From: Planctomycetota bacterium
GTDB taxonomy: Bacteria; Planctomycetota; Phycisphaerae; WQYP01
Reading direction: 5' to 3'
Assembly: GCA_021785155.1 (NCBI GenBank)
Contig: JAJYGE010000216.1
Span: 1 to 6,436 of the forward strand
DNA: 6,436 bases
The notes beneath the pieces were generated by a model. It worked only from the letters and a program-made list of their open reading frames with translations, ran no database searches and was not told the DNA's origin. Below are positions 1 through 6,436 of the stretch, one piece after another. Within the stretch, counting starts at the first letter, position 1; every line of letters starts with the position of its first letter. The position numbers were made by a program, and so were the translations under genes.

Positions 1-2032
1 AATCAAAATCCGCATCGCTTAGTCCATGCGGATGTTCACTGCTGGGCTGAAGCCTCATTAAATCCACCACATTGACCACGCGAATTTTTAAATCAGGCAA
101 TTCACGCCGCAAAATGGAAACGGCGGCCAGTATTTCCAATGTCGGCACATCGCCGGCGCAGGCCATGACCACATCCGGCTCCACGCCGTTGTCATTGCTG
201 GCCCACTTCCAGATACCTATGCCTTCTTCGCAGTGTACGGCTGCGGCTTCTATGGGCAGCCACTGCGGCGAGGGGTGTTTTCCAGCCACGATCACATTGA
301 CATACTGTCTGCTGCGCAGGCAGTGATCCATGACGGAAAGCAGACAGTTGGCATCCGGCGGCAGATAAACCCGCACCACATCGGATTTTTTATTGACGAC
401 CACATCGAGAAAGCCGGGGTCCTGATGCGTAAAGCCATTGTGATCCTGCCGCCACACATGCGACGAAAGAAGATAATTCAATGAGGAAATATCCGCCCGC
501 CACGGCAGATCGCGCGTGACCTCCAGCCATTTGGCGTGCTGATTAAACATGGAATCAACGATATGTATAAATGCTTCGTAGCAGTTAAATACGCCGTGCC
601 GCCCGGTCAACAGATAACCCTCCAGCCAGCCTTCGCATTGATGCTCGCTGAGCATGGAATCCAGTACGCCGCCCGATATGGCCAGAAATTGATCGTTGGG
701 CACCGTGCGCGCATCCCATTGACGATTGGTGAGATCAAAAATCGCTCCCAAACCATTGGAGAGCGTTTCATCCGGACCAAACAGACGGAAATTTCGCGGG
801 GCGGCATTAAGTTTAGCCACATCGCGCAGAAAAGGCCCCAGAACATGCGTATCGCCAATACCGCCAATTCCGGGCGCGGGAACCTGCACGCCATAGTCAC
901 GGAATTCGGGCATTCGCAAGTCCCGCAGCAGTATGCCGCCATTGGCATGGGGATTGGCTCCCATGCGACGCTGGCCCCTAGGGGCAAGTGCGGCCAATTC
1001 CGTTTTCAGCCGCCCTTGCTCGTCAAATAGTTCCTCTGGATGGTAACTTTTCATCCAGGCTTCAAGCATCGTGAGGTGTTCGGGATTTTTGGCTGGATCA
1101 GACAGCGGCACCTGATGGGCACGAAACGTTCCCTCCACGGGCAGACCATCAATAACTTTCGGACCAGTCCAGCCTTTCGGCGACCGCAGGACAATCATGG
1201 GCCAGCGAGGGCGCATCGTGTTGCCTTGTACGCGGGCCTCATGTTGAATTTGCCGGATGCGCTCTATGGCCGCATCAAGTACTGTAGCCATCGCTTCATG
1301 CATCAGAGACGGTTCATGGCCTTCAACAAAATAGGGTGTCCATCCATACCCGCGCAGCAACTGCTCTAATTCATCGGGTTCAATGCGGGCCAGAACGGTG
1401 GGATTGGAAATTTTATAGCCATTAAGATGCAGAATCGGTAATACCGCCCCGTCAGTTTTGGCGTTGAGAAATTTATTGGAATGCCAGCTTGTGGCCAGCG
1501 GGCCGGTTTCCGCTTCGCCATCACCGACCACGCATGCGGCGATAAGATCGGGATTATCAAACACCGCACCGAAAGCGTGGCTGATTGAATAGCCCAGTTC
1601 GCCACCTTCGTGGATGGACCCCGGCGTTTCGGGCGCGGCGTGGCTGGGAATGCCGCCGGGGAAGGAAAATTGTTTGAAGAGTTTTTTCAGCCCCGCCTCA
1701 TCCTGACTGATACTGGGGTAGACCTCGCTGTATGTCCCCTCCAGATATACATTTCCCACTACTGCAGGTCCGCCATGGCCGGGACCAGACAGATAGATCA
1801 TGTCCAAATCATATTTTTTAATCACGCGGTTGAGATGTGTGTAAATGAAGTTTTGTCCGGGCGTGGTACCCCAATGCCCCAGCAGCATGGGTTTGATGTG
1901 CTCAATGGTTAGAGGCTTTTTCAGCAGCGGATTATCATAAAGATAAATCTGCCCCACAGAGAGATAATTGCCGGCCCGCCAATAGGCATCCAATTTGGCG
2001 AGCATTTCCGGATTCAGAGTATTGGTGGTCAT
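1..2032 (-). CDS. xfp: Phosphoketolase (xylulose-5-phosphate/fructose-6-phosphate), C-terminus cut by the window edge
   Basis: This cytosolic, thiamine-diphosphate-dependent enzyme cleaves xylulose-5-phosphate or fructose-6-phosphate with inorganic phosphate to acetyl-phosphate plus glyceraldehyde-3-phosphate or erythrose-4-phosphate. The reading frame is open without interruption for 677 codons from the ATG at 2032 to the left edge. Family members have roughly 790-800 residues, so about 115 C-terminal residues lie outside. Visible landmarks are WRAANYLS-like WRAGNYLS (18-25), GHWGT with His53, GPGHGG with His86, [10 protein letters not shown] with His131, the ThDP/Mg motif GDGEAETG (170-177), FRAHQ with His306, GPDET (419-423), LSEHQ with the probable catalytic Glu463, and [11 protein letters not shown] (529-539). 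The start is supported by AAAGGAAG seven bases upstream, inside the end of ackA. The stop of ackA is only 3 bp away, so the two are probably translationally coupled. One oddity is SNG at 425-427, where relatives normally have SNR. Confidence 0.96.
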
Positions 2033-2035
2033 TAT

Positions 2036-3307
2036 TTAGCTTCCTTTCATTGTTATTTTGAGCAAACCAGAGACCGATTGAGCGATCATCAACTCTTCAT
2101 CGGTATGAATAACGCGCACGGCAACGGGGGCACCAGGCGCAGAAATCAGCGGGGAATTCCTGGCGTTGAGTGCAGGCTTTATGGCAATACCCAGGAAGGC
2201 CAGGTCCCGACAGATACGTTGGCGAATAACCGGTGCGTTTTCACCAATCCCTCCGGCAAAAACCAAGGTGTCCACGCCGCCCAGCGCGGCGGCAAACGAG
2301 CCAATCCATTTTTTGGCTTGATAGCAGAACATGTCCAGAGCTTGCGCGGCGCGCGGATCCGTTAATTCCCGGGCCAGCAAGTCACGTACATCGGAACTGC
2401 TGGCCGATATGCCCAGCAGTCCGGACTTATGATTCACCATGTGCTCAAACTGCACCGCGGTCATGGATTCGAGGCGTGCCAGGTAGCTGACGATTCCCGG
2501 ATCTAAATCACCGGAACGCGTGCTCATCATCAGGCCGGATGCCGGTGTAAAGCCCATGCTGGTGTCGATACTTTTACCATCACGGACAGCGGCCAAACTG
2601 GCACCATTGCCCAGGTGGGCAAGAATCACACGACCTTTTCTGGCCGCCGGGTCGCCAAGCCGCACCAGTTCTTCCATTAGAAAGCTATAGGATAAACCAT
2701 GAAAACCATAGCGCTGTACACCTTTGGTCGCATAGCGTCGGGGAATGGGCAGCAATTTGGCCACCGCTGGCATAGCACGATGAAAAGCGGTGTCAAAGCA
2801 GGCAACCTGAGGGAGTTTCGGGTATTTCTGGCGGAAAGCCTGAATCAGTTGAATTTCACGCGGCAGATGATCGGGATCATAAGGGGCAATGCGGCGTAGT
2901 TCGGCCAGCAATGCTGATGTTACCCGTTGCGGCTTCGAATATTGCATACCGTGAACCACGCGGTGTCCGACGGCCTTGACGGAAGCGAATGCCCTTTGCG
3001 AGACCAGGTAATTTAATAAAAATCCCGCTGCCGAGCCATGACTCTCGGCGTTAATGCCAATGCTGCGCTGAAACTTACCTCGCAAATTGTCCACTGACAA
3101 ATTGGTACCGCTAAGACCAATGCGATCAATTTTCCCACTGATAGTTCGCCGCGGCGATGCGCCAATTTCATACAATGCGAACTTAATGCTTGAGGAGCCG
3201 GCGTTAATGGTTAGAACGGCGGGCGGCTGATTTTTTGCATGGGCTGCGGCGGTCTGCTTGGTCTGTAAGGCCATTTTCCGGGACGATTTTTCCGAATATT
3301 GCGACAT
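2036..3307 (-). CDS. ackA: Acetate kinase, phosphoketolase-linked type
   Basis: The enzyme catalyses acetyl-phosphate + ADP = acetate + ATP in the cytosol, here the likely energy-yielding step after phosphoketolase. It has 423 residues. ASKHA-fold motifs are all present: TINAGSSSIKF (33-43), GHRVVHG with Arg116, CFDTAFH with the probable catalytic Asp172, GFHGLSY with His204, HLGNGAS (231-237), TRSGDLDP with Arg264, FAGGIGENA (350-358) and HTDEELMIA (401-409). The core begins near residue 31, so there is a polar, Lys/Gln-rich N-terminal extension of about 28 residues. A second in-frame ATG at codon 12 (3274) would shorten it, and neither start has a strong ribosome-binding site. The loop that usually reads like APLHNP is here APYDPDHLP (141-149). 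I recall that form from acetate kinases encoded beside phosphoketolase. No phosphotransacetylase gene adjoins. It sits 43 bp after glgP and 3 bp before xfp. Confidence 0.96.
   Translation of the reverse strand: MSQYSEKSSRKMALQTKQTAAAHAKNQPPAVLTINAGSSSIKFALYEIGASPRRTISGKIDRIGLSGTNLSVDNLRGKFQRSIGINAESHGSAAGFLLNYLVSQRAFASVKAVGHRVVHGMQYSKPQRVTSALLAELRRIAPYDPDHLPREIQLIQAFRQKYPKLPQVACFDTAFHRAMPAVAKLLPIPRRYATKGVQRYGFHGLSYSFLMEELVRLGDPAARKGRVILAHLGNGASLAAVRDGKSIDTSMGFTPASGLMMSTRSGDLDPGIVSYLARLESMTAVQFEHMVNHKSGLLGISASSSDVRDLLARELTDPRAAQALDMFCYQAKKWIGSFAAALGGVDTLVFAGGIGENAPVIRQRICRDLAFLGIAIKPALNARNSPLISAPGAPVAVRVIHTDEELMIAQSVSGLLKITMKGS
2040..2047 (-). promoter_or_regulatory. Ribosome-binding site of xfp inside ackA
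   Basis: AAAGGAAG on the minus strand lies in the last three codons of ackA, with seven bases to the xfp ATG. The ackA stop (TAA), three bases and the xfp ATG follow directly. This decides the xfp start and implies that ribosomes finishing ackA re-initiate on xfp. Confidence 0.75.
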
Positions 3308-3335
3308 TCGCTTGCTTCACTTTCACCGCGCGGCT

Positions 3336-3349
3336 TGTCCGCACGGACA
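3336..3349 (-). other. Small hairpin between glgP and ackA
   Basis: One base after the glgP stop codon the minus strand reads TGTCC, GTGC, GGACA, a perfect 5-bp stem with a 4-base loop. No T-run follows; the next bases are GC-rich. It is therefore not a canonical intrinsic terminator. It could protect the glgP end of the message or alter translation of ackA, or it could be chance at this length. Confidence 0.35.
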
Positions 3350-3350
3350 C

Positions 3351-5897
3351 TTACTTCTGCCAGATAATTTGATCGACTTCCAGCGGTACAGCTACGCCAT
3401 TAAAGTGCGGGATTATTCGGGCAGTATAGTCCGAGGCGGGACGTGACGTGGGCACTTGGACGCTATACGCATACCCCCCCGCCGCGCCGGTAAGTTTTCG
3501 CACGTATTTCATTTCCTGCCGGATGGGAGCACCGCCATCCAGACCGTTGGCAAAAAGTTCAACTCGTACCATAGCGGGATCCAATTCGTTGAGATACACC
3601 TGCGTGTCAAAGGTATGCAGCCTCCCGCTGTTGCTGACTTGCGATTCACCGAATTTTACGGCGGCCCATTTTTCATCCAACCGATTTCGCCACTTGACTA
3701 TCTCCGCGCCGGCCACTCCGTTATTGACGGCCCGCGTGAGATAATTGGTGGCGGCGGGTAGATAATGCCGTTGGGTATATTCCCGCACGGCGCGGTTGGT
3801 GCAGAATTGCGGCGTCAGACGGGCCATGCTCGCCCGCATACGTGCCACCCAGGCGGTTGGAATGCCATTGGCATCGTGGGCATAAAATTCGGGAATCACT
3901 TCATGCTCCAACCGATCATAAAGCTGGTTCGCTTCATAGGCATCCCGGGCAGGATCGTCATCATGCTCCTGGCCATCCCCCAAAGCCCAGCCCACCTCCG
4001 GGCAATAGGCTTCCGCCCACCAGCCATCCAATTCTGAAAGATTCAGGCCGCCGTTTACCAGCACCTTCATACCGCTGGTTCCGGACGCTTCCCATGGCCG
4101 GCGCGGGGTGTTAATCCAGACATCCACACCGCGTACCAGGCGCTGGGCCAGGCGCATGTCGTAATCACTTAAGAACACAACGTGCGGACGAACTTCCGGC
4201 CGGTGAATAAACCGAATCCATTCCTGAAGGAGCCGTTGGCCGGCCTGATCCGCGGGATGCGCCTTGCCGGCGATAATCAGTTGCACCGGGCGGCGCGCGC
4301 AGGTAAGCATACGAATAAGCCGCTCCCGGTCATGCAGTAAAAGATTGGGGCGTTTATAGGAGGCAAATCGCCGGGCGAAACCCAGTGTCAGTACATTGGG
4401 GTCTAAAACGTGTTTCGCCCTTTCCACCAGATCGTTCTGAATTCCCGATGCCGCCATTTGGCGCGATAACCGAATCCGGACATCTTCAATAAGCAGCGTT
4501 CGCCCGGTGGTGCGCAATTCCCAGAATCGGTTGTCCGGGATGGCCTCAATGTGTTTGGCTAGCGCATCGGTATTACCCAACCACCGGCCAGTACCGCACG
4601 CTGCGGCCCAAAGCTCATCGGCAGCCGCCGATTCCCAGCTTGGCACATGTATCCCATTGGTAACATAACTGATCGGCACTTCATCGACTGGCCAGTGGGG
4701 AAACAGCGGGGAAAACAAATGCCGACTTACCTGCCCATGCAGGCGACTGACGCCATTGACCGCCCCGCTGCCGCGCATAGCTAGATAGGCCATGTTAAAT
4801 GGCTCATTATCATCCGCAGGATTTCGTCGGCCCAAAGCAAACAACTCATGGTGCGATATACCGAGTTTATCTGTGGCGTAGTGCCCCAGATACTGACTGA
4901 TCAGTGCCGGTGCGAAGCGGTCAAAACCCGCCGCCACCGCCGTGTGCGTGGTAAACACATTGCCCGCCCGGGTAACCGCCAAAGCGGCGTCGAAAGGCAA
5001 ACCCGCTTTATTCTTAAAACTCCGAGCCCGTTCCAAGACCGCAAAGGCCGCATGTCCCTCATTGAGATGGCAGACCTCCGGATTCAGGCCCAGAGCCTCC
5101 AATAACCTCCAGCCCCCGATTCCCAGAAGCATCTCCTGCTGAAGCCGCAACTCCGGCCCGCCCCCATATAATTCGCTGGTAATACCGCGATGAACGGGAG
5201 AATTGGCTGGATCATTGCTGTCCAGTAGATAAAGCTTTCTCCGCCCAACCTGCACCTGCCAAACGCGCACCCACATGGAATATCCAGGCAGCGCAATTTC
5301 CAGACGCAACCATTGACCGTTGGCTTGCCGCAACGGCATGATCGGCAACTGCCCCGGATCATTATAAGGATAAAATGCCTGTTGATTTCCGTCCCGATCA
5401 ATGTGTTGCCGGAAATAGCCCTGCTGATAAAGCAAGCCCACACCCACCACCGGCACACCCAGATCACTGGCGGATTTAAGTTGATCACCGGCCACGTTGC
5501 CCAGGCCGCCGGAATAAATTGGCAGCGCCTCACTTAACATGAATTCCATACTGAAATAGGCAACGCACGTAAGTGGAGAATCCGGATGTTGTTCGTTAAA
5601 CCAAGCCGGTGCCTCGGCCATGCTTTTCTGGGTTTGCAACAGGGCATCAACTTGACCACGAAATTCTTTATCAGCCAAAAGACCCTGAAGTTTTTCCGGC
5701 GATGTCGTCTGTAAAACCACCCATGGATTGCGGGTTTCAGCCCAGAGTTCCGGCTCAAGCTGCCGCCACACCCCGTCCGCTGCGCGGTTCCAGCTCCAGC
5801 GTAAGTCCAGCGCCAGTTCCGCCAGAGCGGAAAACCCCTCTAATTTCAAGGGAAACATAGCACTAATACCACCAATTGCGTCACTGCGTTCCGTCAT
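3351..5897 (-). CDS. glgP: Alpha-glucan (glycogen/maltodextrin) phosphorylase, DUF3417-type GT35
   Basis: This PLP-dependent cytosolic enzyme releases glucose-1-phosphate from the non-reducing ends of alpha-1,4-glucans. At 848 residues it has the length of the TIGR02094/DUF3417 branch of GT35 rather than the classical E. coli/animal branch. The N-terminal DUF3417-like part is seen at about 20-100 (LALDLRWSWN, NPWVVL). The catalytic core begins with VAYFSMEFMLSEALPIYSGG (112-131) and includes CHLNEGHAAF (276-285), NGVSRLHGQVSRH (381-393), VTNGIHVPSW (412-421) and GFARRFASYKR (506-516). The PLP site is EASGTSGMK, with Lys611 as the Schiff-base residue. Residues about 755-848 form a further C-terminal segment, predicted beta-rich, ending IIWQK. 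THTAVAAG (317-324) replaces the commoner THTPVPAG. The ATG at 5897 has AAAGGG five bases upstream; Met14 is the only near alternative. It is probably the first gene of the operon with ackA and xfp. Confidence 0.96.
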   Translation of the reverse strand: MTERSDAIGGISAMFPLKLEGFSALAELALDLRWSWNRAADGVWRQLEPELWAETRNPWVVLQTTSPEKLQGLLADKEFRGQVDALLQTQKSMAEAPAWFNEQHPDSPLTCVAYFSMEFMLSEALPIYSGGLGNVAGDQLKSASDLGVPVVGVGLLYQQGYFRQHIDRDGNQQAFYPYNDPGQLPIMPLRQANGQWLRLEIALPGYSMWVRVWQVQVGRRKLYLLDSNDPANSPVHRGITSELYGGGPELRLQQEMLLGIGGWRLLEALGLNPEVCHLNEGHAAFAVLERARSFKNKAGLPFDAALAVTRAGNVFTTHTAVAAGFDRFAPALISQYLGHYATDKLGISHHELFALGRRNPADDNEPFNMAYLAMRGSGAVNGVSRLHGQVSRHLFSPLFPHWPVDEVPISYVTNGIHVPSWESAAADELWAAACGTGRWLGNTDALAKHIEAIPDNRFWELRTTGRTLLIEDVRIRLSRQMAASGIQNDLVERAKHVLDPNVLTLGFARRFASYKRPNLLLHDRERLIRMLTCARRPVQLIIAGKAHPADQAGQRLLQEWIRFIHRPEVRPHVVFLSDYDMRLAQRLVRGVDVWINTPRRPWEASGTSGMKVLVNGGLNLSELDGWWAEAYCPEVGWALGDGQEHDDDPARDAYEANQLYDRLEHEVIPEFYAHDANGIPTAWVARMRASMARLTPQFCTNRAVREYTQRHYLPAATNYLTRAVNNGVAGAEIVKWRNRLDEKWAAVKFGESQVSNSGRLHTFDTQVYLNELDPAMVRVELFANGLDGGAPIRQEMKYVRKLTGAAGGYAYSVQVPTSRPASDYTARIIPHFNGVAVPLEVDQIIWQK

Positions 5898-5902
5898 ATA
5901 CG

Positions 5903-5908
5903 CCCTTT
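5903..5908 (-). promoter_or_regulatory. Ribosome-binding site of glgP
   Basis: AAAGGG on the minus strand is separated by five bases from the ATG at 5897. It supports this ATG over the in-frame Met at codon 14. Confidence 0.55.
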
Positions 5909-5947
5909 ACACTTTTTCCCCACCACGTTACCCGCAGCTATCGAAGC

Positions 5948-5975
5948 ATTATAGCCCCATGAAAATGCGAAGCAA
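5948..5975 (-). promoter_or_regulatory. Putative sigma-70-type promoter of the glgP-ackA-xfp operon
   Basis: On the minus strand a perfect TATAAT occupies 5953-5948. TTGCTT (5975-5970) precedes it by 16 bases and matches only half of the TTGACA consensus. Transcription would start near 5941, giving a leader of roughly 40-45 bases before the glgP ATG. The TATAAT overlaps the stop codon of the GH35 remnant. The -10 is strong and the -35 weak, so an activator could be needed. No operator-like inverted repeat was found next to it. Confidence 0.5.
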
Positions 5976-6068
5976 GAATCGCTCGAAATGGACCGATCGT
6001 GGATTGTTTCCACGCTGGTCAAAAATCACCAGCGTATTTTTTTTAGATTTCAGCCACCCTGATTCAAT
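5949..6068 (-). pseudogene. Decayed remnant of a second GH35 beta-galactosidase C-terminus
   Basis: The minus strand is open from 6068 to the TAA at 5949-5951, in a different frame from the GH35 gene upstream. It encodes WLKSKKNTLVIFDQRG and then NNPRSVH, against WLKSGSNSLVIFDERG and HSPEGVH in the intact gene 172 bp away. Over these 23 ungapped codons 15 residues are identical and six further codons differ only at synonymous third positions (TTC/TTT, GAT/GAC, CGC/CGT, GGT/GGA, CCC/CCA, GTG/GTC). Upstream, I-x-S-x-W may extend the match to about 6068, right at the stop of the intact gene. Downstream of VH the match fades. There is no start codon or ribosome-binding site, and the rest of the protein is absent. 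The synonymous pattern suggests both copies were once under selection, so this is probably the end of a former paralogue. Deletion between tandem paralogues or a partial duplication would both explain it. Confidence 0.75.
6012..6044 (+). terminator. Intrinsic-terminator-like hairpin read on the plus strand
   Basis: A perfect 8-bp stem (ACGCTGGT at 6012-6019, ACCAGCGT at 6028-6035) encloses an 8-base loop. On the plus strand it is followed by A and eight T (6037-6044), the normal layout of a rho-independent terminator. No plus-strand gene precedes it, so it could only stop antisense transcription. Read on the minus strand it has no U-tail, so it is not a usual terminator for the GH35 gene, although it could protect a 3' end. 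It lies wholly inside the GH35 remnant, where the bases correspond to the TLVIFDQR codons. Confidence 0.5.
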
Positions 6069-6436
6069 TCACCGTCACAGTAAGGCCTGACACGGAGAAT
6101 TGCATACTTGAAGAGCGTAATGTCACAAGCCGTCGACAGGCAGAGTGATCGATTACCAGATGCACACCCTCGGGAGAGTGACCGCGTTCATCGAAAATCA
6201 CCAGGGAATTGCTGCCAGATTTCAGCCAGCACGACGGAATATACAACCCCATGGGCATGACCGGATCCACATAGCGCCCCAGATTGTGGCCATTAATCCA
6301 CATATATCCGCCACCAAGACCAGTCCATGCGGCGCGCAGCACCAGATGCAAGGACCCCTGATCTGGCTGGTAGTTGAATGTGGTGCGGTAAAACGTGGGC
6401 ACGCCGGGAGCGGTTGTAAAAGGTTTCCAGCAGATC
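6064..6436 (-). CDS. Beta-galactosidase, glycoside hydrolase family 35, C-terminal end only
   Basis: The frame is open from the right edge to the TGA at 6064-6066, giving 123 residues of the C-terminus. The GTG at 6402 is internal, because the same frame continues upstream of it to the edge. The sequence YMWINGHNLGRYVD, then MGLYIPSCWLKSGSN and SLVIFDERG, is the C-terminal galactose-binding-like beta-sandwich that ends GH35 beta-galactosidases; plant and bacterial members have VNGxxxGRYW and YxVPxxWLKxxxNxLVVFEExG. Family enzymes remove terminal beta-galactose from oligosaccharides or plant and host glycans. The catalytic barrel and any signal peptide lie outside, so activity and location cannot be judged. 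The last 33 residues after VH have no recognisable motif. The gene is in the same direction as glgP, 166 bp upstream, and no minus-strand terminator separates them clearly. A related glycosidase with the same domain is possible. Confidence 0.75.
   Translation of the reverse strand, partial: ICWKPFTTAPGVPTFYRTTFNYQPDQGSLHLVLRAAWTGLGGGYMWINGHNLGRYVDPVMPMGLYIPSCWLKSGSNSLVIFDERGHSPEGVHLVIDHSACRRLVTLRSSSMQFSVSGLTVTVN

Follow-up and report, generated by a model that had tools for sequence, protein, structure and literature searches.

Recognisable traces of lost genes have been described in bacteria, for example in Buchnera, where, according to the part of PMC3164680 that deals with such remnants, decaying pseudogenes occupy intergenic spacers and are lost mainly by deletion. 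Tandem paralogues that are lost or gained through homologous recombination have been reported for the esaG genes, in the portion of PMC9484751 that concerns their turnover. Here we analyzed a 6,436-nucleotide stretch of planctomycetotal DNA (hereafter the window) that carries the end of a glycoside hydrolase family 35 (GH35) gene ahead of glgP, ackA, and xfp. Comparison of its sequence with relatives indicates that, very probably, two divergent tandem GH35 genes, A and B, once stood ahead of glgP-ackA-xfp, and that B was removed by deletions that left two pieces behind. The genes of the window are as follows.

6064-6435, minus strand: GH35-A, C-terminal end (PF21467); the gene continues past the window edge
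6110-6435, minus strand: the part of GH35-A alignable with A of relatives (PF21467), 86% identical in nucleotides to A of genome G078 (6109-6429) and 97% in amino acids to A of genome G155
5898-5976, minus strand: glgP leader, with promoter-like TTGCTT (5970-5975) and TATAAT (5948-5953) 16 bases apart; aligns with the G078 leader (TTGTTT, TATAAT)
3351-5897, minus strand: glgP-type phosphorylase (PF00343, PF11897), the next gene downstream of GH35-A
2036-3307, minus strand: ackA, downstream of glgP
2-2032, minus strand: xfp, downstream of ackA, cut by the window edge

The C-terminal galactose-binding domain PF21467 was matched in GH35-A with an E value of 5.7e-13, and the match stops at residue 76 of 123. 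The catalytic domain, PF01301, lies beyond the window; the A protein of G155 contains ENE and TEM motifs, and its match P0003 carries PF01301. Both motifs, which correspond to the positions of the two glutamates used in GH35 catalysis, were found in A and B of relatives alike. Used as a protein query, the 123-residue GH35 tail returned two partial proteins, and a scan of viral contigs with this tail gave no relative. The site ahead of glgP is called promoter-like on the grounds of its conservation with G078; a promoter consensus scan over 5700-6436 listed none. The arrangement glgP-ackA-xfp (2-5897) recurs far beyond this lineage, which suggests a glycogen-to-acetate module that has spread between phyla; among 80 glgP loci listed, from many phyla, xfp was matched in 26 and ackA in 26.

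The spacer between GH35-A and glgP contains a stretch that resembles the tail of GH35-A. Two blocks are identical at an offset of 172, namely, 6194-6204 with 6022-6032 (AAAATCACCAG) and 6217-6228 with 6045-6056 (AGATTTCAGCCA), and when 5988-6056 and 6160-6228 are translated on the minus strand, 15 of 23 residues agree and six codon differences are synonymous. The gapless 23-codon match on which an earlier, sequence-only reading of this DNA was built was thus reproduced. At the nucleotide level, 45 of 69 bases are identical, and the differences fall at the first, second, and third codon positions 7, 5, and 12 times, respectively. When the gap (5898-6063) was compared in six frames with the GH35 tail, the best ungapped BLOSUM62 score was 88, and none of 300 dinucleotide shuffles, a control that the sequence-only reading had itself proposed, scored above 47. 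Against P0013, the closest B protein, 5977-6056 scored 114, compared with 41 for the best of 200 mononucleotide shuffles. P0013, like P0003, is a GH35 protein (PF01301, PF21467); it is known as a protein only, without its genomic neighbourhood.

Relatives were sought among 298 genomes from the class of G001 (locus L010, a Phycisphaerales MAG), all comparisons being made on draft genomes. The GH35 tail was matched in 98 of the 298, and at 80% or more in seven: G155 (97%), G078, G143, G173, G161, G102, and G114. We call the GH35 gene that matches the window tail A and the second GH35 gene that follows it B. Six of these seven genomes carry A and B in tandem, and one, G155, carries the scar of the window. 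B follows A on the same contig and strand in G143, G173, G102, and G114, with its tail about 2.7 kb further on; in G161, the contig with A breaks off after 258 codons of B, and its end shares an overlap of 122 bases, with no more than two mismatches, with the contig on which B continues. G078, which is 79% identical to the window over 3-5976, has the order GH35-A, GH35-B, glgP, ackA, xfp, with a complete B where the window has its scrap; the A-B join was made through a 129-base overlap with one mismatch between contig C122, which ends within B, and contig C27, which starts within B. A full second GH35 gene between GH35 and glgP is what the sequence-only reading had suggested looking for, and its proposal that two GH35 genes once stood here in tandem, the second of which was lost by deletion, is borne out by G078 and by the A-B tandem in five further genomes. 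Among these genomes, B is followed by glgP in G078 only, and by other genes in G173 and G102. In G078, the match to ackA (L123:4862-4930) is split between two frames close to the C-terminus, through either a frameshift or a sequencing error.

A and B are 50% identical in G078, and a tree of 47 rows, including P0003-P0033 (31 of at least 88 proteins, from a search limited to 7,995 scored candidates), places them in two separate, fully supported clades; they are old paralogues. G155 and its relatives have several GH35 genes each. Another GH35 gene of G155 (contig C235) was placed in a sister clade of B, outside B itself, so no B was seen in the G155 draft genome. G114 has a second A-type gene (A2, L125), followed by the genes that come after B in G173 and G102 (L118, L120; 90-97% identical), with no B between. 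A search of the A2 spacer (L125:2502-2686) with B proteins gave no clear B remnant, E values being 0.013 or worse apart from the tail of A2 itself. An A-type gene without B therefore also exists without a clear scar, as the outcome of either a cleaner loss or an order that never held B. In G102, the frame of the B gene (L120:10570-10971) is interrupted within the last domain; this may be a further and independent case of decaying B, or else a sequencing error.

In genome contigs, the GH35 tail gave no match at the 80 glgP loci among the matches listed, in flanks of up to 10 kb, many of them cut by contig ends. In the family of G155, glgP was matched in 25 of 28 genomes, and among 14 glgP loci examined (L135-L148), GH35 stands beside glgP in two (G155 and G078) and in none of the other 12, although its absence is weak evidence at L138, L146, and L147, where the upstream DNA is short, and at L143, where the gene is cut. 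The A-glgP gap occurs at none of these 12 loci; a relative with this gap and no GH35 similarity, the observation that would have told against a lost second gene, was not encountered among them. As a DNA query, the gap matched in 4 of the 28 genomes, and G155 alone matched over all 391 bases.

Alignment with G078 divides the scar into the following parts.

6064-6105, minus strand: end of the window A gene, made up of its final 13 codons (MQFSVSGLTVTVN) and the TGA stop; B DNA out of frame by comparison with A of relatives
6053-6106, minus strand: remnant 1, from the catalytic region of GH35-B (YAILRVRPYCDGELNQGG in the frame of B), 82% identical over 56 bases to the interior of G078 B
6051-6056, minus strand: putative junction of remnants 1 and 2, judged by sequence inspection, where TGGCTG fits both sides
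5988-6056, minus strand: remnant 2, C-terminal end of GH35-B and the scrap noted in the sequence-only reading, 80% identical (69 bases) to the stretch of G078 B that immediately precedes glgP
5977-5987, minus strand: bases between the G078 alignments of remnant 2 and of the glgP leader (third junction)

Both remnants are closer to B than to A. Remnant 2 shares 21 of 23 residues with P0013 and 17 of 23 with three further B rows, compared with 12-16 of 23 for 18 A rows; the lowest B-row value in this comparison (5), not counted among these, is that of G102, whose tail frame is broken. By tblastn, which covered seven of the eight B rows (P0029 was left out) and eight of the 18 A rows, remnant 2 had an E value of 9.9e-10 with P0013 and 1.4e-6 with the best of the eight A proteins. 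Remnant 1 shares 16 of 18 residues with P0013 (tblastn E value of 4.7e-6) and scored 87, compared with 44 for the best of 200 shuffles. The eight A proteins gave E values of 0.025 to 0.13 there and have PYDCGE or PYDCAE where the window has PYCDGE; remnant 1 agrees with B at 17 of 20 residues versus at most 12 of 20 for A. The claim that the second gene had lost all but its tail is therefore wrong, because a piece of the catalytic region of B also survives at 6053-6106.

It had also been supposed that the loss stopped precisely at the stop codon of an intact gene, and this is not right either. Alignment of the window A gene with G078 A extends as far as 6109, and the 13 codons and TGA that close the gene consist of remnant 1 read out of frame. 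Since these codons derive from B DNA, the present stop of the survivor is a product of the loss. The 13-codon end is absent from proteins P0004-P0012 (9/9) and from the A-type genes of loci L116-L121 and L125 (7/7), two sets that overlap, and is present in the window, in G155, and in P0003, which is 100% identical to the G155 protein. It falls outside PF21467, given where the domain match ends. Where such scars exist, the annotated C-terminus is not the ancestral one.

The remnants are collinear with B, and both lie between A and glgP. From the alignment coordinates, about 526, 1,996, and 190 bases are missing relative to G078, while the body of A and the promoter-like glgP leader are spared. 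We infer that an ancestor had divergent tandem genes of GH35, a beta-galactosidase family, in the order A, B, followed by glgP-ackA-xfp, and that B had become dispensable. One deletion would have run from the last codon of A into the catalytic region of B, another from there into the C-terminal domain of B, and a third from the last codons of B to just before the glgP leader. Illegitimate deletion is indicated by the absence of a fusion between A and B at equivalent positions and by the two pieces of B, out of register, that were left. Such deletions may have used short microhomology, as TGGCTG at the junction of the remnants possibly was, and may have occurred in several steps or as one complex event. 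Their limits would have been set by what selection kept, namely, the C-terminal domain of A and the glgP leader. The remnants probably have no role as protein: most of B is missing, remnant 1 is read in another frame, and the frame at 5949-6056, open in the window, is shifted in G155, where a run of eight A bases has nine, so we judged that no reading frame is maintained there.

The scar lies within a segment that the window shares with G155.

5794-6294, no strand assigned: tract almost identical to G155 (L115), with the scar in its middle; one substitution in 501 aligned bases and one indel

Over 2065-6431, the window and G155 are 87% identical. Outside the tract, whose limits were picked after the differences were seen, they differ at 479 of 3,679 bases in 2065-5793 (about 13%) and at 9 of 137 in 6295-6431 (7%), and in 2,000 trials with randomly placed differences, no 500-base stretch had fewer than two. 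The single indel is the A run described above, and a shift of frame there fits DNA that has ceased to code. Constraint was rejected as the cause of the near-identity: against G078, this stretch is conserved no better than its surroundings, which makes constraint unlikely. The simplest reading of the sequences suggests that some 500 bases bearing the scar moved between the lineages by homologous recombination, and scars of this kind may be usable as markers of exchange among related uncultured lineages. It is also conceivable, albeit rather unlikely, that the scar allele was favoured, loss of B together with the new 13-residue end of A (and perhaps 3' hairpins) being useful, and that homologous recombination passed it between species-level lineages for this reason.

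The hairpins raise the related idea that the remnant was kept as an RNA element, in which two hairpins end or protect the A message or stop antisense transcription.

6012-6035, no strand assigned: perfect 8-pair hairpin within remnant 2, terminator-like on the plus strand only, where a T run is present; one found, 0.8 expected by shuffles

A second hairpin adjoins it. The folding energy of remnant 2 is -21.7 kcal/mol (z of -3.9; 1 of 200 shuffles was as good), whereas four B tails of relatives gave z values of 0.08, -0.09, -0.10, and -1.25, with the hairpin feature absent or weaker. The fold was, however, observed post hoc, and 0.8 such terminators are expected by chance; the sense strand has no T run, an Rfam search gave no match up to an E value of 1, and the codons for LV..DQ alone supply part of the stem. 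Because the window and G155 are almost identical here, covariation is not available as support. We therefore consider a retained RNA element improbable.

The deletion of a resident B should also be weighed against the later arrival of B pieces, whether inserted or brought by gene conversion with a B gene elsewhere as the source, in an A-glgP spacer that never held B. The multiple GH35 genes of G155 and its relatives and the exchange seen nearby would make this feasible, but the pieces keep the order and orientation of B exactly at the site of B in G078, the A-B tandem occurs in six of the seven genomes with a close A, and the native end of A has been lost at the first junction. Later arrival is thus very improbable. 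If a short piece of the surviving gene's own C-terminus (about 172 bases) had long ago been duplicated in tandem, this would account for the constant offset and the 15 of 23 identities between the copies. It would not explain why the scrap is nearer B than any A row, nor why an intact B occupies the same place in G078, nor would it bring a second piece from the catalytic region of B; this explanation is largely refuted, and we give it hardly any credence. Chance similarity of a noncoding stretch to WLKxGxNxLxIFDxxG, a motif common among GH35 tails, is refuted by the shuffles (0/300 for the gap and 0/200 for each piece reached the observed scores) and by the complete B that G078 has at this position.

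Deletion of a tandem B, the reading that we prefer, places the locus among events already known. The A and B genes of relatives are members of GH35 (PF01301, PF21467), of which the window retains only the A C-terminus together with two B scraps. The locus shows how a tandem carbohydrate-enzyme gene vanishes, with deletions that halt at the last domain of its neighbour and at the leader of the next gene, and how a piece of a dead gene becomes the new end of a living one. As in the Buchnera remnants, as far as PMC3164680 treats them, recognisable scraps of a lost coding gene remain in a spacer, but the gene lost here is a tandem paralogue, and one scrap is now the coding end of its neighbour. 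As in the esaG clusters, in the account that PMC9484751 gives of their turnover, a tandem paralogue has been dropped; in that account, recombination takes place between conserved blocks of the paralogues, whereas A and B are only half identical in G078 and were not fused at matching positions. Set beside what these two sources describe, the event is ordinary gene loss, well resolved, and the locus offers a good example rather than a surprise, owing to its resolution, its chimeric end, and its shared tract.
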